Origin: Methanoregula sp.
GTDB taxonomy: Archaea > Halobacteriota > Methanomicrobia > Methanomicrobiales > Methanospirillaceae
Reading direction: 5' to 3'
Length of the DNA stretch: 36,686 bases
Assembly: GCA_030651815.1 (NCBI GenBank)
Contig: JAUSBW010000202.1
Location: 1-36,686 of the forward strand
Numbering within the stretch: position 1 is the stretch's first letter; every line of letters starts with the position of its first letter. A program made the translations under genes and the position numbers. The notes beneath the pieces were generated by a model. The model saw nothing but the letters and a program-made list of their open reading frames with translations, ran no database searches and was not told the origin of the DNA. This document shows positions 4,814 to 16,002 of this stretch, piece by piece.

Positions 4814-5286
4814 TCAACGTTTTTGAGCATTCTGCATCTGCAACAGTTCCCCTCTGACCCGGTCCATCATTGCCTGAAACTCCGGCTGGAGTTCTCCCTC
4901 GCGTCTTTGCCTGCATAACTTTATTCGCTGCTTCTTTTAGTGAGTTCGCATCCGCACGTATCACAAAATTCCCGTGTCGGACCGTTGACCGTGAAACACC
5001 GGGGGCACTGCCGCGCTTCAAGAGTCTTTGATCTCTCCTCTTTGGTAATGATCCCGGCCTTATCAGTTATTACCCGCTCCACATCGGAATCGACCCGGTG
5101 AAGGTACGTTGAAAACATTTTGCTGTTCAGGTTTCCCCAAAGCAATTTCTTTTCAATGGCCTCACCGTATCCCTGCCGGATGAGGATGGTTGCCCGTGTG
5201 TGCCGGAAGATATGCGGAGTCATGTGCTTTGTTATGCCCACTCTCCTGGCGATGACACGAATCTGCTTTGCCAATCCTGCATGTCG
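4814..5286 (-). pseudogene. Archaeal tyrosine recombinase, C-terminal remnant
   Basis: The frame from 5286 down to the stop at 4921 encodes the catalytic end of an XerD-like archaeal integrase: HIFRHTRAT (H-x-x-R), a GN-x-x-S box LLWGNLNSKMF in place of the usual LGH, and YLH with the nucleophile Tyr. A zinc ribbon CPRC...CDTCGCEL follows. A stop (TAG) at 5287-5289 and the missing Arg I half show that the N-terminus is lost. Beyond the ribbon the family's C-terminal helix is readable only by shifting frame twice: KEAANKVMQAK, then EGELQPEFQAMMDRVRGELL ending near 4814. So the gene is truncated and frameshifted. It sits between copy A of the non-coding element and the toxin-antitoxin pair. Confidence 0.75.
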
Positions 5287-5331
5287 CTAAACTGTCGTCG
5301 GCATAAAAATAATATGCCCCCGCCACTATCT

Positions 5332-5559
5332 ATGTTCATGAACGCGCAATCACGGATCATCCTTGACCCTTCGGTTCTTTCCGGCAAACCAATTATCCGG
5401 GGGACGAGAATCTCTGTTGATCTTGTTCTCGACCTCCTTGCATCGGGATGGGATGAAGCCACCATAGTAAAAGAGTATCCCGGGCTTTGCCGGGATGATA
5501 TACTCGCATGCATCCGGTATGCACAGGAGATTATCCATTCAGAACGGGTCAACTCATAA
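5332..5559 (+). CDS. DUF433 family antitoxin
   Basis: 75 residues from ATG 5332 (ATG 5338 is the alternative). The body IILDPSVLSGKPIIRGTRISVDLVLDLLASG is the DUF433 signature, a winged-helix-like domain usually acting as the antitoxin partner of PIN-like toxins. A TATA-like CATAAAAATAATAT lies 5302-5315, so the message is probably leaderless. The stop is 15 bases before the DUF5615 gene, with which it forms a pair. By analogy it should bind both the toxin and the operon promoter. Confidence 0.85.
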   Translation: MFMNAQSRIILDPSVLSGKPIIRGTRISVDLVLDLLASGWDEATIVKEYPGLCRDDILACIRYAQEIIHSERVNS

Positions 5560-5574
5560 GGGAAAGATCACCGG

Positions 5575-5925
5575 ATGAAACTCCTTGCTGATGAGAATGT
5601 CCCATCCTCGATCGTGAGGGCACTCGAAGAAGAAGGCTATGATATCCGGTCGATACGACTCGATGCACCCGGCATCTCTGGCATTGAGGTTATGCGGTAT
5701 GCACACAAGGATACGCGGGTCATCCTGACATTCGATTTGGACTTCGGAGAACTTGCCGTCAAGGACCGGGTGTACCCTTCAGCCGGAATTATTCTGTTGC
5801 GCTTGCATCAGATGAATCCACACCAAATGGCAGAATATACAAGGGGTGTCATCAAATCACGTCAAGACCGGGAAGGGCATCTTTCCGTCATAGAAAACGA
5901 CCGTATCCGGATGAGACAACTATAA
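5575..5925 (+). CDS. DUF5615 PIN-like toxin
   Basis: 116 residues, full family length. The N-terminus MKLLADENVPSSIVRALEEEGYDI has the DEN acidic motif, and VILTFDLDFGELA carries the second acidic cluster of the PIN-like fold (DUF5615, Mut7-C-like). Such proteins are predicted metal-dependent RNases and nearly always pair with DUF433 partners, as here. The ATG follows GGGAAAGATCACCGG, a modest ribosome site. It probably cleaves cellular RNA when the antitoxin is lost and may stabilise the adjacent mobile island. Nuclease activity is inferred from the fold, not visible. Confidence 0.85.
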   Translation: MKLLADENVPSSIVRALEEEGYDIRSIRLDAPGISGIEVMRYAHKDTRVILTFDLDFGELAVKDRVYPSAGIILLRLHQMNPHQMAEYTRGVIKSRQDREGHLSVIENDRIRMRQL

Positions 5926-5976: not shown

Positions 5977-6008
5977 GATTTTTTAAAATAAACACTAACA
6001 AGTGTTAG
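5977..6008. promoter_or_regulatory. Palindromic operator / left inverted end of the integrase island
   Basis: A GATTTTTTAAAATAAAC tract (a good TATA box) runs into the palindrome CTAACA-AG-TGTTAG at 5995-6008, about 21 bases before the integrase start. The repressor-type position between TATA box and transcription start suggests control of the integrase gene. The same T/A tract plus palindrome recurs inverted at 15255-15285, so it may instead be an element end or recombination site. Confidence 0.5.
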
Positions 6009-6029
6009 GATTTTTGAGAAACCATTAAT

Positions 6030-7370
6030 ATGTCAGGAGTTCCATACTCCTGTATGGTAAGGAAAGCAGACAAACCAAGTGAAGGGAACCCCCCCGTACC
6101 TAAACTGGTTAAGTTCCTGTCAGGGTATAGCAATGGCAGCACAAAGGCGGGATATAAGACCGCAATTGAGAGTTTCCTTCGGTGTATTTTTGGGATGAAG
6201 AAAGACGATATCAAATCGGGTAAGATACCCACCCCCGATTATAATGCACTTTTTGAAATGTATCTCCTAGAGAATCGGGACAACGATGCAGACTTTATCA
6301 GATTCTCTGAACATCTGATAGAAACCAGACCGGCATTATCAGCAAAGCAGTCTATGACCGCGATTAGGTACGCGATGACATATCACGGGGTAAACATCAG
6401 TAAGGGAACCAGTCAGGACATACGCCGTGAAACCATGAAGGGCAGCGCGGCAACGGTGGATCGGGTACTCAATACCAAGATTATCAATGCAGCACTTCAG
6501 CACACGACGATCCAAGGCAAAGCATTGTTCCTCTGTCTTGCATCATCGGGAGCAAGGTTGAACGAGATGCTATCGGTTAGTATCAATGATATAGACTTCA
6601 ACAGCCACCCGATTAAGATGACGTTCAGAGGAACGAACACCAAGAACGGACAGCAGAGATACACCTTCATATCCGATGAAGCAACGGCAGCGGTTCAGGA
6701 GTGGTTAAAGGTTCGCGGTCGGTATATCGAAATGAGCAATGCCAAAAGCAAGAAACTGATTGAGATGGGGCGTGCAAGTGTTAAGACTGCCAATGATACC
6801 CGCCTATTTCCGTTCAGTGATGCCAGCGTGACCGGATGGTGGAACGATGCACTATCAGCAAGCGGTGAATTGACAAAGGACGATGTGACCGGCAGAAACC
6901 AGCTAAGGATTCACGGATTTCGAAAATTCTTCTTATCGCAGATGAGCCTTATTGTCAGCAAGGAGATCCCGGAGATGCTCGCAGGTCACTCTGCTTATCT
7001 GTCAGGTTCATACAGAAGATACGACGATGAAACCGTTGGAGCAGAGTACTTGAAAGCGATGCACATGGTTTCCATCACTGGAAATAAACAGGTCAAAGAA
7101 TTAGAGAACGAATTGAAAGAGAAGATGCAGGAGCAGGCAGTCAAAACAGAAAAAAATACGGATGCACTGGTGATGGTCTTAAACGAGAACATGACCCTAA
7201 AAAATCAGATGCTAGGATTTGAGAGGGAAAATGCAGCGCTCCAAGCACGATTACAAACGATTGAGGAAACACAGACAACCACAATCAATATTGATGCAAT
7301 AATTGCTACGATGAAAGAGGAAATGATGACGGAAATTATGGCACGATTGCAGAAGAACCAAAAACAATAA
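6030..7370 (+). CDS. Tyrosine recombinase / integrase with C-terminal coiled coil
   Basis: 446 residues. After an N-terminal helical SAM-like DNA-binding region (about 20-135), the catalytic domain shows Arg I in ASSGARLNEML (near 176), the beta-hairpin Lys of NTKNGQQRYTF, H-x-x-R in HGFRKFF (near 295-298), LAGHS (His near 320) and the nucleophile Tyr in SYRRYDDE (327 or 330). All catalytic positions are present, so it should be active. Residues 350-446 form a long coiled coil (ELENELKEKMQEQ...) typical of integrases of archaeal plasmids and integrated elements. The start at ATG 6030 is chosen for its distance from the TATA box; ATG 6054 is possible. It probably integrates and excises the island to its right. 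Confidence 0.9.
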   Translation: MSGVPYSCMVRKADKPSEGNPPVPKLVKFLSGYSNGSTKAGYKTAIESFLRCIFGMKKDDIKSGKIPTPDYNALFEMYLLENRDNDADFIRFSEHLIETRPALSAKQSMTAIRYAMTYHGVNISKGTSQDIRRETMKGSAATVDRVLNTKIINAALQHTTIQGKALFLCLASSGARLNEMLSVSINDIDFNSHPIKMTFRGTNTKNGQQRYTFISDEATAAVQEWLKVRGRYIEMSNAKSKKLIEMGRASVKTANDTRLFPFSDASVTGWWNDALSASGELTKDDVTGRNQLRIHGFRKFFLSQMSLIVSKEIPEMLAGHSAYLSGSYRRYDDETVGAEYLKAMHMVSITGNKQVKELENELKEKMQEQAVKTEKNTDALVMVLNENMTLKNQMLGFERENAALQARLQTIEETQTTTINIDAIIATMKEEMMTEIMARLQKNQKQ

Positions 7371-7534
7371 TCTCTTTTTTAATGCGGCAGGTATCCGGTT
7401 TTCTTTCTTTTTCGGTTCAATTGCAAGATTGGTATGCGCAAATATGGACAAAATACCCCTCCCCCCCTATTAATATAACATGTTAGTGCTAAAACGGACT
7501 CTAAATTAAAATCAGCCTGATTAAATTCGTTTTT

Positions 7535-7560
7535 TCGATAAGTTTTATATGCCCGTTTTT
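7535..7560 (+). promoter_or_regulatory. Promoter of the small-gene operon
   Basis: AAGTTTTATATGCC (7541-7554) is a strong archaeal TATA box about 40 bases before the first operon start at 7588. The preceding stretch (7371-7535) holds the T-rich end of the integrase gene and no gene. Confidence 0.5.
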
Positions 7561-7587
7561 GGATATGCCTCTTTAAGGAAACGAAGT

Positions 7588-7782
7588 ATGACACACATTT
7601 CGATCTCAAAAAAATTAACCGACCGATACCATTCGCTCGGTGGAAATGTCTCCGGTTTTTGCCGGCGATGTGTTGAGCAGGAGATCACAAGAATCGAAAA
7701 CGAAATCGGGGGAACACGCCGCCAAGCAATGCAACCCCCGACTACCAACCCGAAGGAAGGCGATCAAATTGTCAGCACCTGA
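7588..7782 (+). CDS. Small RHH-like (CcdA-type) DNA-binding protein
   Basis: 64 residues from ATG 7588; an upstream in-frame ATG at 7552 would add 12 residues but falls on the TATA box. ISISKKLTDRYHSLGGNVSGFCRRCVEQEI fits the pattern I-S-x-x-L-x-x-x-Y-x-x-L-G-x-N-V-S-x-x-C-R-x-x-x-E-x-E-I of short archaeal ribbon-helix-helix proteins related to CcdA antitoxins. First gene of a run of eight coupled genes, it could be their autoregulator. The last 14 bases overlap the next gene. Confidence 0.6.
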   Translation: MTHISISKKLTDRYHSLGGNVSGFCRRCVEQEITRIENEIGGTRRQAMQPPTTNPKEGDQIVST

Positions 7783-7906
7783 AAATAAAAATCCTCTCGT
7801 GATCTCGCATATCGTTTTTGAGAGCCTCGATCCATTCCACCGGGCAGCCGCTGAAGTCTTAGAACTTCACGGCAAGGTTGTAATTGAAGGGGTGAAATCA
7901 CCATGA
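7769..7906 (+). CDS. Unknown 45-residue protein (TTG start)
   Basis: The start is TTG at 7769, chosen because AAGGAAGG lies about 8 bases upstream; no ATG is available in the conserved-looking part. The product, SAPENKNPLVISHIVFESLD and on to GVKSP, is one short alpha/beta unit with no recognised domain. It overlaps the preceding gene by 14 bases and the next by 4 (ATGA), implying translational coupling. Too small for a confident family call. Confidence 0.4.
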   Translation: MSAPENKNPLVISHIVFESLDPFHRAAAEVLELHGKVVIEGVKSP

Positions 7907-8232
7907 AAAAAGTTGTGTCCCCCGGGTTGCCTGCCCGGGGAACGAGGAGCGTTTTGCAGGGTACCATCGCCTGCACAATTATATCAACTGACTCCAATAT
8001 CAAAAACCTTCCCTCCAAGGATCTTAAATCTGTTATTATTTGTGCCAGAGGATTTCTCGCAGCTGGTCAGCAAGTCGATGAGAATCTTCTTTTTGACAAG
8101 TGCCCCAGCAGATACCGCCGTGGAAATTGCTTAAAGGCGCTGCGAGTCCTGCATCGACTATACCCCAATACCAGACTCGTTTTGGAGTCTGGTATTTATG
8201 TGTTGTATCCGTCGGGGGGTGAACGGGCATGA
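7903..8232 (+). CDS. Unknown 109-residue protein, possible winged helix
   Basis: The start ATG 7903 overlaps the previous stop (ATGA). The N-terminal 30 residues are basic and glycine-rich. The C-terminal half (GNCLKALRVLHRLYPNTRLVLESGIYVLYPSG) has a helix followed by a two-strand hairpin, as in winged-helix folds, but the match is only by shape. No catalytic motif is seen. The stop at 8230-8232 overlaps the next start by 4 bases. Confidence 0.55.
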   Translation: MKKVVSPGLPARGTRSVLQGTIACTIISTDSNIKNLPSKDLKSVIICARGFLAAGQQVDENLLFDKCPSRYRRGNCLKALRVLHRLYPNTRLVLESGIYVLYPSGGERA

Positions 8233-8504
8233 CCGAAAAAAGCACCGATGGGTGGAAGGCTCAACAGAAACCCACAGAAAAGCCTACCATTGCCCCCCCA
8301 GTGGTAAAAGTACCGGCAGATGTGCGGAGGAATCAGCAGATTAACACAGAGTGCCAGGAATGCCCGATTGCCAGAACTCATTGCCGTCTGTTGTGGCGCA
8401 ATACCAAGAAGAAAAAAGATAGAAAGCCCGTATTTATCACGGCAATAGTAGCCCTAGCGGTCAAGCACGGCGGGGAGATGGTTTGCTTGAGGGGGAAACC
8501 ATGA
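8229..8504 (+). CDS. Unknown 91-residue Cys-motif protein
   Basis: Starts in the ATGA overlap with the preceding gene. A charged, proline-rich N-terminus is followed by ECQECPIARTHC, a C-x2-C-x6-C cluster that could hold zinc or iron-sulphur, then a basic KKKKDRKP stretch and a short hydrophobic helix. A further Cys lies in MVCLRGKP. The basic patch beside a metal site suggests nucleic-acid binding, but no family is recognised. It ends in another ATGA overlap. Confidence 0.55.
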   Translation: MTEKSTDGWKAQQKPTEKPTIAPPVVKVPADVRRNQQINTECQECPIARTHCRLLWRNTKKKKDRKPVFITAIVALAVKHGGEMVCLRGKP

Positions 8505-9118
8505 GCGATCTGGACTGGAGAAAAGTATCTTCCAAACTTATTGAACGCGATTGCCGTCCATTACGGGAAAAAAATCTCGATGAAGTCCTGAGAGGGTTTA
8601 ACGGCGACCCGTTTTATTCGGTGGGTATCGATATTGATCGTGATTCCGATAAAACAGTTCACGAGAACTTTGCCATCATTGAGGGGATTCAGCAGTTGTT
8701 TCAGGCATTATCGAATATTACTCACACCGGATATAATGATCTTCTGCGCGTGATAGTGATACACGGATTCGCCTTATATGATCTAAAAATAGGAAACGAT
8801 ATTGCACTATCATTCAGGAATCGTCAGGACGACATTCTAAACCGTAAATCGGCATCTTTAGGTGCGGCACAATGCAATATCAATATTGAAGAAAGCGAAG
8901 GGAAGCATACCTCTTTTAGTCTCGACAAGGTGCTGTCAGGTGCGCTCGGACGCCATGCCAGGATGGGCTGCATACCAAAATACAAACTGATCACGATCTG
9001 TATGTGTTACAGCCTCGCCTCATACCCTGATCTTGAAAATTCCCCTTGGGTTGAAATCTTCACAACAAGCATTCAGAAATTTGAAAAGAAACAACGTGAG
9101 CGGATGGGTATATTATGA
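8501..9118 (+). CDS. Unknown 205-residue protein
   Basis: ATG 8501 overlaps the previous stop and is preceded by GAGGGGGAAACC. The TTG at 8483 is an alternative but would leave the ribosome site inside the gene. The sequence is soluble and mixed alpha/beta, with acidic DIDRDSDKTV and helical segments IEGIQQLFQALSNI and LLRVIVIHGFALYD. The C-terminus is basic (KKQRERMGIL). It is the largest protein of the operon, with no signal peptide or known motif. A replication or regulatory role is possible by context only. Confidence 0.65.
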   Translation: MSDLDWRKVSSKLIERDCRPLREKNLDEVLRGFNGDPFYSVGIDIDRDSDKTVHENFAIIEGIQQLFQALSNITHTGYNDLLRVIVIHGFALYDLKIGNDIALSFRNRQDDILNRKSASLGAAQCNINIEESEGKHTSFSLDKVLSGALGRHARMGCIPKYKLITICMCYSLASYPDLENSPWVEIFTTSIQKFEKKQRERMGIL

Positions 9119-9366
9119 TAACACGGAGTAGAGTATATAAAGATACGACGTGCGTGATTAAACGATTAATTGATTACAGGATTATTCAATTAATTGATTA
9201 TCCGATTATTCAATTACACCGTAATCAGTTAATAGAATATATCAAATCCCAGATTCAACAAACTCCCATTTTTTCAATCCCATCGACGGTGAAACCCCGC
9301 ATACCAGTACTGGTTGTACTGTACTCAGGGATTCACCGACGAGACACACGGAAAGGTGTAACATGA
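9115..9366 (+). CDS. Unknown 83-residue protein with internal peptide repeat
   Basis: Starts and ends in 4-base overlaps (ATGA) with its neighbours, the main reason to accept it. Residues LIDYRIIQ and LIDYPIIQ are consecutive copies of an 8-residue unit encoded by a 24-bp tandem duplication, followed by a looser copy ending IEY. The rest is basic and unremarkable. AT content over the repeat is higher than in the operon as a whole. Function unknown. Confidence 0.4.
   Translation: MITRSRVYKDTTCVIKRLIDYRIIQLIDYPIIQLHRNQLIEYIKSQIQQTPIFSIPSTVKPRIPVLVVLYSGIHRRDTRKGVT
9166..9213 (+). repeat. Two tandem 24-bp repeats
   Basis: The units at 9166-9189 and 9190-9213 differ at three positions (C/T, A/C, G/C at unit positions 12-14). 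Each starts TTAATTGATTA and ends GATTATTCAA. They keep the reading frame of the 83-residue gene. A partial third copy follows. Confidence 0.85.
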
Positions 9367-9530
9367 AGTTGTACGGCTGGCTCGCGTTTCTGTTTGTCGT
9401 TGTTGGATTATTTCTGGTATTTATCAGGGCCCGCGATTATTGGTGTGATAGATTTCATAGACCGGCCACGGTCGAACCCGAACCCAAAACATACACATTA
9501 CAACGGGTATCATTGAGGCGGTTGAAGTGA
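9363..9530 (+). CDS. Small single-span membrane protein (55 aa)
   Basis: The ATG at 9363 overlaps the preceding stop (ATGA). A hydrophobic stretch LAFLFVVVGLFLVFI (residues 7-21) forms one membrane helix, followed by a basic, Pro/Glu-containing cytoplasmic or external tail (RARDYW...). Its stop at 9528-9530 overlaps the GTG of the next gene. No family recognised. It is the only membrane protein of the operon and might anchor a partner. Confidence 0.55.
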   Translation: MKLYGWLAFLFVVVGLFLVFIRARDYWCDRFHRPATVEPEPKTYTLQRVSLRRLK

Positions 9531-9826
9531 GAATAAAACAGATAGCTTCATTCATTGGAATATTCCATGCGGGACATCAACGACTTCCCCCAGGATGGGA
9601 TGCCCTCATGCACAAAATATCAAGGCGTCCGGGACATCTGATGAAATTTATTTCCTGTCTTGAAAAGAAATACCCGGCAGCACTCGCAGAATTATTGAGT
9701 GTGTATAAGTTTCAAGGCGATGATACCGCTGATGATTGCGATGGATTTCACCCGGCACCTTTGACCGAACCGAAGGATCATAAAGTCATTCCGCTGGAAC
9801 CGGAGCATCTGAAATTTTATCAATAA
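9527..9826 (+). CDS. Unknown 99-residue protein (GTG start)
   Basis: GTG 9527 overlaps the previous stop as GTGA, continuing the coupling pattern. The product has a helical N-terminal half (KISRRPGHLMKFISCLEKKYPAALAELLSVYKF) and an acidic, proline-rich tail. No motif is recognised. It is the last gene of the coupled run; a T-run (ATCTTTTTTTTACC) follows within 20 bases and may terminate transcription. Confidence 0.55.
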   Translation: MRIKQIASFIGIFHAGHQRLPPGWDALMHKISRRPGHLMKFISCLEKKYPAALAELLSVYKFQGDDTADDCDGFHPAPLTEPKDHKVIPLEPEHLKFYQ

Positions 9827-9844
9827 TCTTTTTTTTACCACAAG

Positions 9845-9879
9845 TTATATCATGTTATATGAAATAATATAAAATAACT
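9845..9879 (+). promoter_or_regulatory. Promoter with repeated GTTATAT boxes
   Basis: GTTATAT occurs at 9844-9850 and 9854-9860, followed by AATAATATAAAATAAC just before ATG 9880. The repeated boxes could be operator half-sites or alternative TATA elements for the DUF2683-like gene. Confidence 0.35.
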
Positions 9880-10047
9880 ATGGCAAAAATGTTGATTGAA
9901 TTGTCTAACGATGAAGACAAAATTGTAGAAGTCTATAAGGTGGTGAAAAGTTTGAATTCAAAACAGGAGGCAATTAAAGAAATGATTCGGTACTTTGCGG
10001 TGGAAATTCGACCAAAAAATTTAGAGGAGAAAACGTATTTCAAATAA
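9880..10047 (+). CDS. DUF2683-like small RHH protein (55 aa)
   Basis: MAKMLIELSNDEDKIVEVYK is a beta strand followed by helix alpha-1, and SLNSKQEAIKEMIRYFA is the second helix with the S-K-x-x-A-I-x-x-M signature of archaeal DUF2683 ribbon-helix-helix proteins. Expected to dimerise and bind DNA. It stands 12 bases before the LemA-like gene and probably shares its message. Codon use is AT-rich like its downstream neighbour. Confidence 0.6.
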   Translation: MAKMLIELSNDEDKIVEVYKVVKSLNSKQEAIKEMIRYFAVEIRPKNLEEKTYFK

Positions 10048-10059
10048 ATATGGGGGATA

Positions 10060-10887
10060 ATGATGTCTTATAACCGCCCACGTATGAATACAACTCGTAA
10101 AGTTAATGGAGAAAATAGTATAGTTGGGAAAATTAGCGGAAGAAGTGATGCAATATTTTTTCGTAACAAGTACCAGACAGAACTTGATAATGCAAATGTA
10201 GCTATTGTAACCCATGTACATTATCTTGAAGATAAACAAAAAGAATTAAAAGGAGCATTTGATAATTCTCAACGCCTGAAAAAAAATATTGATGCTCATT
10301 TAGATGAACAAAAAACCCTCTACGAAAATCTTGAAAATTTACTTGCAAATGAAAAAGGTCATGAAAAAGAAATGTGGTTTGAAACTTTAAAGAGCAGAAT
10401 ACAGGAAATGAAAGATAAAAATATTACAGTAATTCCTAAAATAAAAGATTCGGATGTTGAATCTATGAATATTGGATCATCATTAGATCATCCAAAACAA
10501 TATCCAGACTCTAAAATTAAAGACCGATATCAGAAGATTTTAAACGATATTGAATGGAAAGAGAAAGAAATTCGAAAAGAACGTGAATCATATAACGGTG
10601 CTGTATCCACCTATAACTTCTTCTTAACTCCATTTGAAAAAAATATCCAAAAAGCAGAGGACAAATTTACAGCATACGATAAAATATTGCAAGAAGGTAC
10701 TAAGCGATTGAATGAATGCCGATATTCTGGAAGTTTTTTTCACAAATTCTCTTCAGAAAAATCCAAAGACGAAATTTCCATTGATACTTTATCACATCGC
10801 GTAGAACAATTCAGAAACACATTAGATATTATAAAAAGAAACTTGTCACAATACGAGACTAAAAAATTCGTTGAAATGCAATACTAA
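10060..10887 (+). CDS. LemA-like helical protein
   Basis: 275 residues, nearly all alpha-helical and highly charged (Lys/Glu-rich). The stretch ERESYNGAVSTYNFFLTPFE resembles the LemA signature R-x-x-Y-N-x-A-V-x-x-Y-N-x-x-x-x-x-F-P, with the long paired helices typical of LemA around it. LemA proteins normally begin with a membrane helix, which is absent here, so it would be cytosolic. Codon use is far more AT-rich than that of core genes, pointing to foreign origin. ATG 10060 or 10063 follows GGGGGATA. A pure coiled-coil protein of other origin is the alternative. Confidence 0.6.
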   Translation: MMSYNRPRMNTTRKVNGENSIVGKISGRSDAIFFRNKYQTELDNANVAIVTHVHYLEDKQKELKGAFDNSQRLKKNIDAHLDEQKTLYENLENLLANEKGHEKEMWFETLKSRIQEMKDKNITVIPKIKDSDVESMNIGSSLDHPKQYPDSKIKDRYQKILNDIEWKEKEIRKERESYNGAVSTYNFFLTPFEKNIQKAEDKFTAYDKILQEGTKRLNECRYSGSFFHKFSSEKSKDEISIDTLSHRVEQFRNTLDIIKRNLSQYETKKFVEMQY

Positions 10888-11177
10888 TATCTTTTTAATT
10901 TTGTCACAATCAACAATGTGTTATTTAAAAATAATGGAAACTATCCACAAAACAAAAGGAAACCCTGTTTTGTATTTGCTTTTTGTTTCGCGATGCTGTT
11001 TCAACAACACTCAGAGCTATGCACACAGCCTCTCTCCTGCCCTCCGAGGTGAGGACGTGCCATGCGAATCTGATGCGGAGGTTCGGTTCTCTTTAATCGC
11101 GTAGAGGGGAGGGGTACGTTGGGACAAAGGGCGCGGGCGGGCGCAAAGTTCAAGTTAGGCACGTCTCACAGATTGCT
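10888..11177. other. Intergenic region with composition switch
   Basis: The left 60 bases are AT-rich and hold CACAATCAA-CAA-TGTGTTATT (10905-10925), a motif seen again at 21840-21860, then a T/A tract: probable terminator of the LemA-like gene. From about 10980 the sequence becomes GC-rich and contains no open frame worth calling. GAGGGGAGGGG (11103-11113) is not positioned as a ribosome site. No promoter stands out for the following zinc-ribbon gene. Confidence 0.4.
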
Positions 11178-11411
11178 ATGTCAGTACAATTCTCAATCAT
11201 CAGATGTCCCAAATGCAAGCACGTAATGAGATACGTTCGCAAAGATGGAGTGTGGAAATGTGGGTATTGTCCCAACTCGCTCCCCGATGAAGCACAGACT
11301 ATTGCCGTACAACCCCAGCCGATGCCAGAACCTGCCAAAGAAGAAACGCCGTTTGACATCAACGATCTCCAGATGTTCAACAAGCAACCAGAAGCACCGG
11401 GGGCGACATAA
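11178..11411 (+). CDS. Small zinc-ribbon protein (77 aa)
   Basis: Residues 10-31 form a zinc ribbon: CPKCKHVM...WKCGYCP (C-x2-C-x15-C-x2-C). A proline-rich linker (QPQPMPEPAKEE) and an acidic tail DINDLQMF follow. Such ribbons bind nucleic acid or protein partners. The stop TAA at 11409-11411 shares a base with the next ATG (TAATG), so the three genes 11178-12015 look coupled. Real by its motif; function unknown. Confidence 0.65.
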   Translation: MSVQFSIIRCPKCKHVMRYVRKDGVWKCGYCPNSLPDEAQTIAVQPQPMPEPAKEETPFDINDLQMFNKQPEAPGAT

Positions 11412-11584
11412 TGCCAATCACAGTCTGTCCTTCTTGCCGTGGCCGTGGATGTCGGGAGTGTGGCCGTCGGGGAGTTGTCCGAGCACCTGAGCAGCAACCC
11501 CAACAGCAACCCCAGGACACAGGGCGTTCCGTGGCGGAATTTATCGATCGGTTCGGGCAGCCGGTTTTTCGGAGGGATAGATAA
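11411..11584 (+). CDS. Mini DnaJ-type zinc-finger protein (57 aa)
   Basis: MPITVCPSCRGRGCRECGRRG contains C-x2-C-x-G-x-G-C-x2-C-x2-R-G, close to a DnaJ cysteine-rich repeat. A Gln/Pro-rich linker and an amphipathic tail VAEFIDRFGQPVF follow. ATG 11411 overlaps the previous stop (TAATG), and its own stop TAA 11582-11584 overlaps the next start in the same way. Probably a protein-interaction module of the element. Confidence 0.6.
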   Translation: MPITVCPSCRGRGCRECGRRGVVRAPEQQPQQQPQDTGRSVAEFIDRFGQPVFRRDR

Positions 11585-12015
11585 TGGGCGAATTGACACC
11601 CCGCGAGAGGATTGCCTTCGAAATGCAACTCGCACGAGAACAGCATCTCGATCCAGCGATGCAAAGAGCAGCCGATGTGACAAAGATATTCCAGAAAGGC
11701 GCACAGGCAGTTCAGGAAAAAGTCAGGAGCGAAAACCCACAGCCCATTGGTGCACGACCACGGGGTATCAGACCGGGCAGGGGTGCATCATCCAACGTTT
11801 TGCCGGCTATGGGTTCATCTGCGTTCGGCATGGGCGGGGGGCACATTGACTTTCGCGGGGGTTCGGGGGTGGCATACGGAGCAGCCAGAGGGAGCTCGGT
11901 GGACTTCGGGCATGGGTCTGCCGTGGATACGCGTGCACTGAATAGCCGAAAGTTCGGCATGAATGACGCCGTACTGGAATATTCCAAACCGATATTCGGA
12001 CGACGCAAAAATTAA
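11584..12015 (+). CDS. Unknown glycine-rich protein (143 aa)
   Basis: Starts in a TAATG overlap. The N-terminal helix LTPRERIAFEMQLAREQHLD is followed by a second helix (QRAADVTKIFQKGAQAVQEKV), then from residue 55 a low-complexity Gly/Ser/Ala/Arg region (GIRPGRGASS, FGMGGGHIDFRGGSGVAYG) and a basic end FGRRKN. No signal peptide. The layout, a short helical head and a disordered basic Gly-rich tail, suggests assembly or nucleic-acid binding; no family recognised. Confidence 0.6.
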   Translation: MGELTPRERIAFEMQLAREQHLDPAMQRAADVTKIFQKGAQAVQEKVRSENPQPIGARPRGIRPGRGASSNVLPAMGSSAFGMGGGHIDFRGGSGVAYGAARGSSVDFGHGSAVDTRALNSRKFGMNDAVLEYSKPIFGRRKN

Positions 12016-12038
12016 GGTAGGCATGGTGTACCAAGACG

Positions 12039-12215
12039 ATGAAGGTGGTGAACGACACGAACAAAGAATCCGGATTTCACAAAACACGCCAGAACGCGAA
12101 TATGATTATCAACCGGCAGTGTATCCATCCTGTCCACTTCGGACTTAACGCGATGGAATGCCACTCGGACGGAGCACTCACGCACGTACATAAAAAGATG
12201 TACCACATTGAGTAA
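12039..12215 (+). CDS. Possible 58-residue protein
   Basis: ATG 12039 to TAA 12215. MKVVNDTNKESGFHKTRQNA, then CIHPVHFG, ECHSDGALTHVHKKM: His and Cys residues are spaced in a way that could bind metal. A competing frame (to 12148) covers part of it. There is no clear ribosome site, but it lies 23 bases after the glycine-rich gene on the same strand. Confidence 0.35.
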   Translation: MKVVNDTNKESGFHKTRQNANMIINRQCIHPVHFGLNAMECHSDGALTHVHKKMYHIE

Positions 12216-12235
12216 ACTTATTTCACTTTTTTTTA

Positions 12236-12763
12236 TTATTTCATGCCGATTTCAAACCTCAATAAATAAAATGCTGATATTGGTAATATACAACCAAGAA
12301 CCCCAACAAACAATCCAATTATTCCAAGTTGAATAACAAAATTTACCATAAGGATTGATATATATAATATTGAAATATAGTGCTTATACGTTATACAGTA
12401 TGCACCCTTAAAAAATATATTCTTGATTAATTCAATAGGTCGATAGATAAGGAAATTTAGAGATTTGTCACGTACGTAAAATCTTTTATCATCATACCTT
12501 TGATTCATCTCCCTGATGTATTTTTTACCTTCAGGACTATTTCGCCATCTTTCTTTATCAATTTCTTCTTGACGTTTTAATCGGTCGATTTCCATCTGTA
12601 ATTTTTCAGATTCCAACCGATTACGTTGAATAGTACTTTGTCGAAATTGCTCGTCTAATTCTTCCTTGTATTCGTTATCCCTTGGATCTTGATTGGCTGG
12701 AACAGGTCCCCAAATATCAAAAGGAAGAATCGGTCGAGGAAACCGGTTGTCCTTCTTTGCCAT
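12236..12763 (-). CDS. Unknown coiled-coil membrane protein (175 aa)
   Basis: Starts at ATG 12763 (MAKKDNRF). Residues about 35-90 are a charged coiled coil (ESEKLQMEIDRLKRQEEIDK). The C-terminal third has two hydrophobic segments, ISILYISILMVNFVIQLG and GLFVGVLGCILPISAFYLL, probably membrane hairpins. Codon use is very AT-rich, similar to the LemA-like gene, and unlike the GC-rich neighbour 11584-12015. It points against the surrounding genes. No family recognised; soluble head with membrane anchor. Confidence 0.55.
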   Translation of the reverse strand: MAKKDNRFPRPILPFDIWGPVPANQDPRDNEYKEELDEQFRQSTIQRNRLESEKLQMEIDRLKRQEEIDKERWRNSPEGKKYIREMNQRYDDKRFYVRDKSLNFLIYRPIELIKNIFFKGAYCITYKHYISILYISILMVNFVIQLGIIGLFVGVLGCILPISAFYLLRFEIGMK

Positions 12764-12851
12764 GATAGGTATCAAAAGCAAGTTGTATTTCTTTATTGTG
12801 ATTTACACAAATCTATTTTTCACTCACTGCATACATTCTCACATCTAGCAG

Positions 12852-12905
12852 GACTTTTGCCAACAGAAACCCAATGGCGAGGTCTGCCGTCAATGCTGGA
12901 TAGGC
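12852..12905 (-). repeat. Copy 1 of a 54-bp repeat (membrane-gene 3' end)
   Basis: Identical at 53 of 54 positions to 13877-13930. On the minus strand it reads AYPALTADLAIGFLLAKV, the end of the small membrane protein intact at 13862-14053. Here it has no proper start upstream, so it is a duplicated fragment lying just before a lipoprotein gene. Confidence 0.85.
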
Positions 12906-12938
12906 GATCACCCCACACGAGTCATCATCAAATAAGAG

Positions 12939-13003
12939 AATATATCATCACTCAAATGAAAGGGGGGGTATGAAATATCTCCTTTTTGTCCTTTTACTGG
13001 TGG
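12939..13003 (+). repeat. 65-bp perfect duplication, copy 1 (leader and signal peptide)
   Basis: Identical at all 65 positions to 14183-14247. It covers a TATA-like AATATATC, the ribosome site AAAGGGGGGG, the ATG and the first 11 codons (MKYLLFVLLLV) of the lipoprotein signal peptide. Confidence 0.95.
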
Positions 13004-13833
13004 CAGTAATAATAACCGCAGGATGCACAAGTGGAAATCAAAACACCGTTGTTACACCTACGCAGACAACATCCCCATTATCAACCAACACTCTCACAAC
13101 AACTGCACAAACAACCGCAGTATATACACCGTCACAGACTTACAAAACTGCGGATCTGGTGTTAGTACTTAACACCAACCCGACGTATGGATTTAAAATG
13201 GATTACCCGTCAGAGTGGACATACAAACGTGAGATCAACAAAGGTTGGAGAGCGGGTTATAATTTTTCAAGTCCCGATGAAAAATCCTATGTATCTGTTA
13301 ATATTGATGATAATGCGGGATCGGCAGACTATTGGTATCCGCTAATTACACCCACAGAGAATAGCGCTTGGTCAATGACAGACAAAGGATCATGGGCTGG
13401 TAATACAATCAAAGCAGAGACGGAACCTTCATATTGCCTTGACGGAGCAGGTAATCCCGGTAAACCGGGGGACTGTTCTTCAAGTGCAAGTGAGAAATCA
13501 TATTTACACCGGAGATTAATTAGCAGTGAACCAGTTACACTATCAGGAAACGTTAAAGCCTATAAAATGGTATTCGCACCCGATATCAAAGACAGACAGA
13601 CATCAGAGGGGACTAAGACGGATTATATCATGCATGTCGGAAAGATTCAAGGATATAACTTCACCGTACCGCAACACCCAGAGGTTGCCGTAAAGGTAGA
13701 TGGACCCGTATGGGACTATGGAATGGATGGACAGGCATATGCAATTCAGCTAAAATCTTCAAAAGACCAAATGAATGCGACATCGGATATCTTCGATCAC
13801 ATGATAAAATCGTTTGAAGTGACAATAAAATAA
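12970..13833 (+). CDS. Lipoprotein with PsbP-like domain
   Basis: 287 residues. Signal peptide MKYLLFVLLLVAVIITAGC has a lipobox TAGC, so Cys19 is likely lipid-anchored outside the membrane. A Thr-rich linker (residues 25-60) leads to a domain beginning NPTYGFKMDYPSEWTYKRE and ending DIFDHMIKSFEVT, the beginning and end typical of PsbP/DUF1795-like domains found in archaeal surface lipoproteins. Start fixed by the strong AAAGGGGGGG site. Its leader and signal peptide are an exact copy of those of the second lipoprotein gene downstream. Role probably in cell-surface binding; substrate unknown. Confidence 0.8.
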   Translation: MKYLLFVLLLVAVIITAGCTSGNQNTVVTPTQTTSPLSTNTLTTTAQTTAVYTPSQTYKTADLVLVLNTNPTYGFKMDYPSEWTYKREINKGWRAGYNFSSPDEKSYVSVNIDDNAGSADYWYPLITPTENSAWSMTDKGSWAGNTIKAETEPSYCLDGAGNPGKPGDCSSSASEKSYLHRRLISSEPVTLSGNVKAYKMVFAPDIKDRQTSEGTKTDYIMHVGKIQGYNFTVPQHPEVAVKVDGPVWDYGMDGQAYAIQLKSSKDQMNATSDIFDHMIKSFEVTIK

Positions 13834-13861
13834 AATTACATCTTTTATTCACGGCATAAAT

Positions 13862-14053
13862 TCATCCATCTTCAGTGACTTTTGCCAACAGAAACCCAAT
13901 GGCGAGGTCTGCCATCAATGCTGGATAGGCAACCGCCCTGCATGAATATACGTTTATTTTCTTCTTCCCTTCCAAAAGAACCAGTATTACTAAAATTCCG
14001 AATAAGAGAACAACCCATCCGATTATGGTTCTCGTTTCGATGTCGTTGGTCAT
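13862..14053 (-). CDS. Small membrane protein (63 aa)
   Basis: The start ATG 14053 has GAGGTT 9 bases upstream. MTNDIETRTIIGWVVLLFG opens the first membrane helix (GWVVLLFGILVILVLL), followed by basic GKKK, then YSCRAVAYPALMADLAIGFLLAKV as second helix or re-entrant segment. Its last 54 codon-region bases are repeated at 12852-12905 and, more weakly, at 14121-14165. It is the likely parent of those fragments. Sits between the two lipoprotein genes on the opposite strand. Function unknown. Confidence 0.6.
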   Translation of the reverse strand: MTNDIETRTIIGWVVLLFGILVILVLLEGKKKINVYSCRAVAYPALMADLAIGFLLAKVTEDG

Positions 14054-14120
14054 CGCTCGAACCTCAAATATTTTGATATTATCTATACTCCACGAAGTAT
14101 CTATCGACTTTGGGAAACCC

Positions 14121-14165
14121 CAACAGAAACGCAATAGCGAGGGCTGCCGTCAATGATAGATAGTC
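14121..14165 (-). repeat. Copy 3, diverged fragment of the membrane gene 3' end
   Basis: CAACAGAAACGCAATAGCGA matches CAACAGAAACCCAATGGCGA of the other two copies, and the match continues through GCTGCCGTCAATG. As with copy 1, it sits just upstream of a lipoprotein leader, so fragment and leader were duplicated as one unit. Confidence 0.75.
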
Positions 14166-14182
14166 AACCATCATGCTCGGTA

Positions 14183-14247
14183 AATATATCATCACTCAAA
14201 TGAAAGGGGGGGTATGAAATATCTCCTTTTTGTCCTTTTACTGGTGG
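14183..14247 (+). repeat. 65-bp perfect duplication, copy 2
   Basis: Identical to 12939-13003, covering TATA-like sequence, ribosome site, start codon and signal-peptide core. Identity ends abruptly at 14247, after which the two lipoproteins diverge (VAVIITAGC versus VVVLITAGC). Confidence 0.95.
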
Positions 14248-14699
14248 TAGTTCTAATAACAGCCGGTTGTGTTAGTCAACCCCAAACCCCTACAACAACT
14301 ACTAGTTACAGTGTTGTCGTACCTCTTACAATTGAACCTCTCACCTATCAAGCAACAACTCGGTATTTACCCGAATCATCGGAGTATGGTTGTTTCGAGA
14401 TTACAGGGTTATCTGAAGCATATATCGCAAGTGGATATTTAGGGCCTAATATTGCAGATACTAGAAGAATGACTGGTACAATAAAAAATAATTGCGGAAA
14501 AATAATGGCCTTTCATATTAGAGTACGATGGTTTGACGAAAATGGTGAAGGTGCATACGTATCCTCCTATTTTTCTAGATTGAAATCGGGTGAGAGTAAG
14601 AGCTTCGTAATGGATGGTTTTCATAACACAAAATATTATGGGTATCTTGAGGAGACAAAGGGATGGACATATAAAATTGCTATTGAGGTTGAAACCTAA
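14214..14699 (+). CDS. Lipoprotein with FxLYD-like domain
   Basis: 161 residues. Signal peptide and lipobox TAGC (Cys19) as in the upstream lipoprotein. After a Thr-rich linker, the segment MTGTIKNNCGKIMAFHIRVRWFDENG, then LKSGESKSFVMDG, matches the extracellular FxLYD/beta-sandwich pattern (G-x-I-x-N-x-x-x-x-x-x-x-x-x-V-x-x-x-D-x-x-G). A surface-anchored beta-sandwich of unknown ligand. Mature parts of the two lipoproteins are unrelated, so only the export module was copied. Confidence 0.75.
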   Translation: MKYLLFVLLLVVVLITAGCVSQPQTPTTTTSYSVVVPLTIEPLTYQATTRYLPESSEYGCFEITGLSEAYIASGYLGPNIADTRRMTGTIKNNCGKIMAFHIRVRWFDENGEGAYVSSYFSRLKSGESKSFVMDGFHNTKYYGYLEETKGWTYKIAIEVET

Positions 14700-14730
14700 T
14701 TCAAAATTCTTCGTGGTACTAACGGAAGAA

Positions 14731-14990
14731 TCAAGAATTGGCGGAATACCCCAGCAGATCAATAACTGGCGCAATAGCCTCAAGGCTCAAAGATAGTGTT
14801 CTGGCTCTCATATCCGCCGAGAACTTCAAAATATTCTGGGTCAAATAGATAAGTTTCCATTCACTTTTGCAGATCCCAAGACCTCGTCTCTGGAATTTTT
14901 TTAAATTCCGATTTTCTTTAGTCCACCCAAAAAAAGGTTCGATGATTGTTATCCGTTTTGAATAAAGTGATTTAGCATTTGGTTGCAGGA
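14731..14990 (-). pseudogene. IS transposase C-terminal remnant (IS1182/IS5-like DDE)
   Basis: Reading the minus strand from about 14990 gives KSLYSKRITIIEPFFGWTKE, then NRNLKKFQRRGLGICKSEWK, then LIYLTQNILKF, ending at TGA 14731-14733. The I-E-P-x-F-G-x-x-K-x-N-R...R-x-x-R-G...E-W-x-L-x-x-x-x-x-N-x-x-K pattern is the conserved end of DDE transposases, with the final catalytic Glu in IEP. A stop lies upstream near 15015, and no inverted repeats or first two acidic residues are found, so it is a dead 5'-truncated copy. Confidence 0.75.
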
Positions 14991-15020
14991 TGGAACGGTT
15001 GAGAAGAAAGTATCACGCGA

Positions 15021-15161
15021 TCAATCCCGCTGCATCAAACCGCAATCAGGACATAACCATCCTATCGAAACAAATTTCCTATCCTTCCTAGTGTATATTC
15101 TCTGCATTTTGAACACACGTTTATCTGAGTGCTCATGTTCTTTGTGTTTGATGTCTACCAT
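15021..15161 (-). CDS. Mini zinc-ribbon protein (46 aa)
   Basis: From ATG 15161 the frame reads MVDIKHKEHEHSDKRVFKMQ, then RIYTRKDRKFVSIGWLCPDC, then GLMQRD. The basic first half and C-x2-C at GWLCPDCG resemble half zinc-ribbons of small archaeal transcription-associated proteins; a dimer would be needed to complete a four-Cys site, or His residues HKEHEH supply the rest. It lies beside the transposase remnant. Low-complexity surroundings leave some doubt that it is expressed. Confidence 0.5.
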   Translation of the reverse strand: MVDIKHKEHEHSDKRVFKMQRIYTRKDRKFVSIGWLCPDCGLMQRD

Positions 15162-15254
15162 AAAGATGTATACAACTTTCTAAGATAAAAAGTTAATCGG
15201 GGCGATTTCCTTTGAGATTTCACTCATACTTATTTTTTTGAGAGTTGATATTTA
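15162..15254. other. AT-rich spacer, no gene
   Basis: A T-run (TTATTTTTTTGAGAG, 15230-15244) precedes the right palindrome. Nothing codes here. Confidence 0.4.
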
Positions 15255-15285
15255 CTAACACTTGTCAGATATTTTTAAAAAAAAT
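15255..15285. promoter_or_regulatory. Right palindrome, inverted relative to 5977-6008
   Basis: CTAACACTTGTCAG (15255-15268) matches the reverse complement of 5995-6008 at 13 of 14 positions and is followed by ATATTTTTAAAAAAA, as the left site is followed in mirror orientation by TTTTAAAAAATC. It abuts the FKBP stop codon. Candidate right limit of the integrated island, or second operator. The A/T tract also suits termination of FKBP transcription. Confidence 0.5.
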
Positions 15286-15286
15286 A

Positions 15287-15853
15287 TCAGCCTTTTTGTA
15301 TCTCAATTAACCGAATCGTAAAAACGAGATCTTTTCCTGCAAGTTCGTGGTTCTCGTCCCAGGTAATTGTTGAAGGGGTGACATTGATTATCTTTACCCG
15401 GGCAACAGCCCCATCGGGTTTCCTTGTAATTGTCAGGACGCCCCCCACTTCTGGCTTTACATCATCGGGCAATGTCGAACGGTTCACTACATGGACGAGT
15501 GCATCGTTATACGGGCCATAGGCTTTGTCAACCGGAATCTTTAACGTCTTTGTCTCCCCTTGTGCCATGCCGGTGACTCCTTCTTCAACACCCTTGATAA
15601 CCCTGCCCTGCCCGATAATAAACGTAAGCGGGGTTGAGTTCACATTCGAATCAAAGACCGTTCCATCAGTAAGACTCCCGGTATACTCAACCGTCACCAT
15701 ATCCCCGCTCTTTGCACCGGATGGATTAAGCAGGATGTACCCGATGACTACGAGAATCAGTATTACTGCTGCCGCAACCATCGCAAGTTTGGGGTAGAGT
15801 CTTTTTTTGGCTGCAACCGCTTCCCTGCCCTTGACCTTCTCAGACTTCTTCAT
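15287..15853 (-). CDS. Membrane-anchored SlyD-like FKBP peptidyl-prolyl isomerase
   Basis: 188 residues from ATG 15853, which has GGAGAT just upstream; the longer frame to 15892 lacks this. Residues 22-42 form a membrane anchor (LAMVAAAVILILVVIGYILL), so the enzyme faces outward. The FKBP core VTVEYTGSLTDGTVFDSN, then PLTFIIGQGRVIKGVEEGVTGM holds the prolyl-binding aromatic and hydrophobic positions. An inserted IF-like flap (LPDDVKPEVGGVLTI...) and the SlyD-type NHELAGKDLVFTIRL close it. It catalyses proline isomerisation and chaperones exported proteins. Divergent from nifB. Confidence 0.9.
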   Translation of the reverse strand: MKKSEKVKGREAVAAKKRLYPKLAMVAAAVILILVVIGYILLNPSGAKSGDMVTVEYTGSLTDGTVFDSNVNSTPLTFIIGQGRVIKGVEEGVTGMAQGETKTLKIPVDKAYGPYNDALVHVVNRSTLPDDVKPEVGGVLTITRKPDGAVARVKIINVTPSTITWDENHELAGKDLVFTIRLIEIQKG

Positions 15854-16002
15854 GGTAATCTCCAGTACAATAATCCAATCAACCATATACATTTAATCAG
15901 GAGAGATCAATCGGTCACAAAAACTAAAAAACCAGTATCGGCAAAGATATCGACAATAAGAGAACCCTCCACGTGTTGTTGTGAATCGCAATCACAATTG
16001 CA

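Follow-up and report, generated by a model that had tools for sequence, protein, structure and literature searches.

Eight short open reading frames follow a tyrosine recombinase gene between positions 7588 and 9826 of the window, the 36.7-kb stretch of Methanoregula-type methanogen DNA analysed here. Do these frames form a true operon, do they belong to a mobile element, and what could such an operon do? An earlier note had read them as an eight-gene operon and as the possible core of an undescribed archaeal mobile element.

Layout and coding potential of the operon

All eight frames were recovered at the predicted coordinates: 7588-7782, 7769-7906, 7903-8232, 8229-8504, 8501-9118, 9115-9366, 9363-9530 and 9527-9826. 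As the earlier note described, neighbouring frames share 14 bp at the first joint; at each of the remaining six they share exactly 4 bp (five ATGA and one GTGA). Among ORFs of at least 40 aa, the longest chain of 4-bp overlaps in the window has seven members. This exceeds chance expectation, since 60 sequences simulated with a first-order Markov model, each 36.7 kb long, reached 2-4. The same count reaches 11 in the related locus L190, 8 in L207 and 7 in L054, and two more loci reach 6. Tight ATGA/GTGA packing is therefore usual for such compact elements, where it is an ordinary form of translational coupling. The proposal that strict coupling implies a fixed stoichiometry or a strict order of products is not upheld, since coupling is common in the relatives whatever their gene content.

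Shine-Dalgarno-like motifs (GGTGA, GGGGGA, AAGGTG) precede most of the starts. A TATA-like stretch lies upstream of the first gene (approximately 7543-7551) and a terminator-like T8 run downstream of the last, an arrangement that would fit a single transcription unit. Codon statistics gave z=7.0 for the integrase, z=4.0 for the fifth frame (g5, 8501-9118) and z=0.1 for the sixth (g6, 9115-9366), with weaker support for the shorter ORFs than for g5. Because 9115-9366 has no coding signal and includes 9165-9216, where the element has its strongest tandem repeat, the supported count is seven genes and one doubtful ORF. Seven of the eight proposed genes thus stand, and the sixth looks more like a patch of AT-rich repeats than a gene.

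All eight frames lie on the forward strand. The first encodes a ribbon-helix-helix (RHH) protein of 64 aa (7588-7782), of the CcdA type with an E-value of 0.0064, below the Pfam cut-off. It is followed by g2 (7769-7906, 45 aa, start TTG), g3 (7903-8232, 109 aa), the Cys-cluster protein g4 (8229-8504, 91 aa), the 205-aa ORFan g5, the doubtful g6, the single-span membrane protein g7 (9363-9530, 55 aa) and g8 (9527-9826, 99 aa, start GTG), the final gene, which the T8 run follows. That no product apart from the RHH protein is recognised holds for Pfam, PHROGs and NCBIfam. The g3 coding sequence also contains two strong hairpins, at 8167-8196 (12 pairs) and 7917-7943 (10 pairs).

The element, its ends and its cargo

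At the DNA level, the window and the contig L037 of genome G123 match in only two places, the integrase region from 5979 onward and 53 bases at 15232-15284, while the flanks and most of the cargo differ. As only these two parts match, and as the ends recur in the genomes with copies, the element was delimited to 5979-15284 (9.3 kb). The related element in L037 occupies 7542-12456 (4.9 kb).

Both ends are AT-rich and form imperfect inverted repeats. The left end, TTTTTTAAAATAAACACTAACAAGTGTTAGGATTTT (5979-6014, forward strand), is a terminal repeat with the inner palindrome CTRACA-NN-TGTTAG, and homology to three other copies begins here. The right end (15250-15284, forward strand) is an inverted copy of the left and matches the right end of L037, with unrelated flanks. 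Twelve genomes were searched for the end pattern. Left ends occur four times (once each in G000 and G123, twice in G118) and right ends three times (G000, G123, G118); a reversed control pattern had no match in the same set. The ends share T-run/A-run cores (TTTTTTTAAAA) and the inner palindrome CTRACA-NN-TGTYAG. Copies at unrelated sites thus have defined ends in common, which places them among tyrosine-recombinase integrative elements.

The integrase (6030-7370, forward strand; PF00589, E=2.5e-11) has 446 aa and a C-terminal coiled coil. Its catalytic residues R176, H295-x-x-R298, H320 and Y328 are invariant in the alignment, so the intact recombinase that had been claimed upstream of the operon is present. 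It is 81-86% identical to those of G118 and G123 (85-86% over most of the length; 81% for G123 over the full alignment). The best NCBIfam model was archaeal XerA, below its cut-off, and phage and plasmid records yielded only a weak partial plasmid match.

Beyond the operon, 9880-12781 is occupied by mixed ORFs. These include a 55-aa short ORF (9880-10047) with weak similarity to phrog_9850, a LemA-domain protein with a coiled coil (10060-10887), whose gene is very AT-rich (30% GC), a Zn-ribbon gene cluster (11178-12015) and a membrane protein on the minus strand (12236-12781) with a relative at L042:4224-4613. Two related lipoprotein-like genes follow on the forward strand (12970-13833 and 14214-14699). 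Their upstream DNA and signal-peptide starts (12939-13025 and 14183-14269) are 93% identical, while the genes otherwise differ, as if the leader had been shuffled like a cassette. A 57-nt non-coding repeat surrounds these genes in three copies (12860-12916, 13885-13941, 14120-14176) and is also found in another genome (L036 3676-3741), outside the corresponding element; it may represent a mobile repeat or an RNA. Genes for capsid or conjugation functions were not recognised in the element, and PADLOC reported nothing convincing.

Insertion sites

The right end of the element lies about 3 bp past the stop codon of a host FKBP-type isomerase gene (15287-15892, minus strand; PF00254), and the T-run just past this stop is the insertion site. 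The gene is kept in relatives of the same genus, where homology with the window ends at the element end; most of them have an A-run there, which is the T-run after the FKBP gene on the gene's own strand. The flanks of these relatives past the T-run differ, and an empty site was not seen at the base-pair level. In L037 the right end is about 10 bp past the stop of a 311-aa ORF, and in L240 the third right end follows a 279-aa ORF at about 45 bp. The left end in L038 lies about 15-20 bp past the stop of a 621-aa ORF, presumably threonyl-tRNA synthetase. The four sites thus lie in T-runs, 3-45 bp downstream of genes. The left flank of L036 has no comparable gene end, and its right end was not located on the contig. 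The window contains no tRNA gene, and insertion occurred after the FKBP gene. Four sites are too few to establish that terminators are preferred; the choice of AT-rich DNA alone, as in Tn916, would also fit.

Just left of the element, at 4921-5925, lie an integrase that is truncated and ends in a zinc ribbon, and a small gene followed by a DUF5615 (PIN-like) gene. These last two genes are toxin-antitoxin-like, and the site may be an insertion hotspot.

The g2 family and recurrence of the module

The earlier note had proposed the 205-residue g5 as the marker for a neighbourhood search. This gene proved unsuitable: homologues were absent from 232 genomes of the class, from IMG/VR and from phage records. 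In profile searches of the 232 genomes the recurrent gene of the operon is instead the 45-aa g2, which has homologues across Methanomicrobiales. The family alignment contains 25 members. One more comes from L036, where the integrase shares 85% identity with that of the window. In a draw of 393 genomes from the phylum 32 were g2-positive, 31 of them from the same order as the source.

Twenty loci (L190-L209) were fetched by g2 alone, and two of these have no upstream sequence. Among the other 18, an integrase on the same strand is found 15-2018 bp upstream in 16, and one more has it at 5.1 kb. The g2 match in L201, with no integrase and the appearance of a chance frame, was dropped as spurious.

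The other genes recur less often. TBLASTN matches were found for RHH, g2 and g7 in L066, g2 in L053, g3 in L064 and g4 in L037, all downstream of integrases, and g3 in L066 was added by reading the locus. With weak g3, g4 and g7 matches (E above about 1e-3) left out of the counts, profile searches of the 232 genomes found g3 clearly in three other loci, with L205 added by iteration, and g4 and g7 in one each. The g3 homologues thus follow integrases in L066, L064, L190 and L205. The g4 homologue (L037:9321-9494) is 40% identical across the C-terminal 55 aa and lies downstream of an 86% identical integrase, and that of g7 (40% identity) belongs to the integrase-led element of L066. The L066 counterpart of g8 is weak and positional (27%), and no clear homologues were found for g5, g6 or g8 in these searches. 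Iterated profiles joined the RHH protein of the window to the RHH proteins immediately before g2 in other elements. IMG/VR scans with the integrase, g3, g4 and g7 yielded no relatives.

The order RHH-g2-g3 is common to the window, L066 and L190, and in the relatives more widely an integrase is followed in order by a small DNA-binding protein, g2, accessory genes and a replicase. The small genes therefore recur in order next to integrases, as the idea of a module had predicted. Together with the borders and the intact recombinase, this recurrence bears out the assignment of the operon to an archaeal mobile element; we consider both the element and its recurrent module established.

The predicted g2 protein is a beta-alpha-alpha-beta mini-domain (AF2 mean pLDDT 80, about 90 in the core). 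No Pfam family matched it, a fold search with the model gave no match below E=2.8, and the family has no conserved catalytic-type residues. Comparison of the g2 and g3 profiles as a paralogy test returned probabilities of 28% and 5%. The pairs of g4 and g7 are too diverged for a usable dN/dS, and selection estimates are thus limited to g2 (0.13-0.55 in five close pairs) and the integrase (0.08-0.09). Both are under purifying selection; the neutral evolution of the small genes that would have counted against the module is not seen in g2. Many such elements are marked by the g2 family, a hallmark that had not been named before.

The replicase slot and the origin-like repeats

In many relatives g2 is followed by replication proteins. 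These are helicases with D5_N/DUF5906 domains in L190, L193, L205 and L066 (DUF5906 alone in the last) and NrS-1-type polymerases in L191 and L196. The g3-bearing L064 encodes a D5_N protein, and an ATPase family of 386-461 aa is common to L037, L040 and L074. In the window the slot held by the replicase in relatives is filled by g5. Judged from this position, a replication role of g5 has at best an even chance. A single-sequence AF2 model of the protein (pLDDT 33) was not usable.

An AT-rich patch of 8/24-bp repeats follows at 9156-9240. In L037 the patch after the slot gene consists of six copies of the 9-bp motif ATTTTCACC on both strands, and in L066 of a long imperfect inverted repeat. 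The sequence of the patches varies from element to element. Because AT-rich repeats follow the slot gene in the window, L037 and L066, their position suggests an origin. The L066 inverted repeat (14920-15350 of the reverse complement, between the primase-helicase gene and g7) has arms well over 100 bp long and could be either an origin or a nested small element.

The lack of a recognised replicase or capsid gene in an element of satellite-like size (9.3 kb) could also mean that it is a decayed or satellite provirus which kept its integrase and early genes, lost its replicase, uses g5-g8 as accessory or host-takeover genes and needs a helper virus. Some g2-bearing relatives (L196, L193) hold a terminase-like or tape-measure-like ORF, and L074 shares the ATPase family. 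However, most of the ORFs are open and have some coding signal, the dN/dS of the integrase is low, and the 4.9-kb sister in L037 carries its own ATPase, which indicates that small size is normal for this group. We regard a satellite provirus as possible but rather unlikely.

The DNA-binding partner of g2

A small DNA-binding protein usually directly precedes g2. In general it is an RHH protein, and these RHH proteins are mostly closest to CcdA. Other partners are of the MazE/AbrB type (L192, L197), a winged helix (L191), HTH_17 (L205) and a zinc ribbon (L053); the remaining ones were assigned by eye. In 4 of the 25 aligned loci (L198, L199, L207 and the plus-strand copy in L058), also read by eye, such a partner is not evident. 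In L194 a single ORF (6690-7067) carries both RHH and g2, while its close relative L193 has two genes overlapping by 1 bp. The fused ORF indicates that RHH and g2 work together, and the two likely form a two-part repressor pair.

The partners upstream of g2 have antitoxin-type folds (CcdA, MazE, VapB-like), the fold is exchanged as in toxin-antitoxin modules, and the RHH and g2 genes overlap, all of which would suit an addiction pair stabilising the element, with g2 as toxin and the exchangeable DNA-binding protein as antitoxin. The resemblance of the RHH domain to CcdA-type antitoxins stays below the Pfam cut-off, and no CcdB match was found among the neighbours of the RHH gene, nor was a CcdB, MazF or PIN partner seen within the module. 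That g2 is a 45-aa domain without conserved catalytic-type residues speaks against a toxin, its fusion to the RHH domain in L194 would be odd for one, and HTH_17 and winged-helix partners are typical regulators. An addiction pair is accordingly improbable, and the repressor reading is preferred.

That the ORFs of 7588-9826 are chance open frames is hardly credible and, for five of them or more, is refuted. In favour of chance, coding signal is missing from 9115-9366, and g5, g6 and g8 lack clear homologues. Against it, the seven-ORF chain exceeds the simulated maximum of 4, RHH, g2, g3, g4 and g7 have protein-level homologues in other genomes, and g2 shows constraint in all five close pairs.

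Comparison with known elements

Small integrase-plus-replicase elements are known from archaeal dark-matter islands, including those of Methanosphaerula (e.g. with Mpal_2033), and have been proposed to be integrated satellite elements (PMC4158269). As far as that account describes them, they resemble the window element in their small size, integrase, mostly unknown ORFs, lack of capsid genes and, in some, a methanogen host. They carry a primase/helicase protein, whereas the window element has an ORFan in that place: no pRN1-like or Mpal_2033-like primase-polymerase and no SF3/SF1 helicase was found among its scanned ORFs, while several g2-bearing relatives have them. "Undescribed" is thus fair for the element at 5979-15284 and too broad for small integrase-plus-replicase elements of archaea as a kind.

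AT-rich ends and targets are known in the Tn916/Tn1549 family (PMC12084037, PMC5871717), and the Tn916 target consensus is TTTTTA-W4-AAAAA, mostly intergenic (PMC12084037). The window element shares with this family its AT-rich imperfect inverted ends and AT-rich, non-unique T-run/A-run sites, seen at four left and three right ends with different flanks. It differs in that its integrase is closest to archaeal XerA models, only four sites have been seen and, unlike in Tn916/Tn1549, no relaxase or type IV secretion match occurs among the scanned ORFs. Archaeal integrative plasmids and viruses that use tRNA genes, such as those of the SSV type, likewise have a tyrosine recombinase beside one end, and RHH regulators are common in them. 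In contrast to these, the window element has no tRNA at its site, its integrase gene is unsplit (the 446-aa ORF is intact inside the element) and its ends are inverted AT-rich repeats.

Proposed role of the operon

The best explanation of the whole, and in our judgement a probable one, is that the operon at 7588-9826 controls a 9.3-kb element integrated in a Methanoregula-type methanogen and probably also initiates the replication of this element. The module is best read as an integrase, a two-part repressor, accessory genes, a slot gene and origin-like repeats. RHH and g2 would jointly repress the operon and keep the element silent while integrated. Upon relief of repression the coupled operon would be translated as one unit, g5 may act at or near the origin-like repeats downstream of it, and the integrase would excise and then reinsert the element. 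Through its AT-rich inverted ends with their T-run/A-run core, the element would integrate into AT-rich T-runs immediately behind the 3' ends of host genes, in a manner likened to relaxed-target tyrosine recombinases. We consider it unlikely that these elements go further and constitute an archaeal family of tyrosine-recombinase transposons which, like Tn916, uses many sites, prefers poly-T terminators behind protein-coding genes, is controlled by an RHH+g2 repressor and has in g5 an unrecognised type of initiator.

No description of g2-bearing Methanomicrobiales elements was found among open-licence papers. Three features are new: a hallmark family (g2), the exchange of DNA-binding partners beside it, and the combination, in an archaeal element, of inverted AT-rich ends with T-run sites at gene ends. 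Little has been catalogued of the mobile elements of Methanomicrobiales. Across this order g2 can serve as a sequence marker of integrated elements and help to detect plasmids, proviruses and satellites. Insertion into T-runs at gene ends, if general, would be an unusual choice of safe site for an archaeal element, and the g5 slot offers a concrete place to seek new replication proteins.
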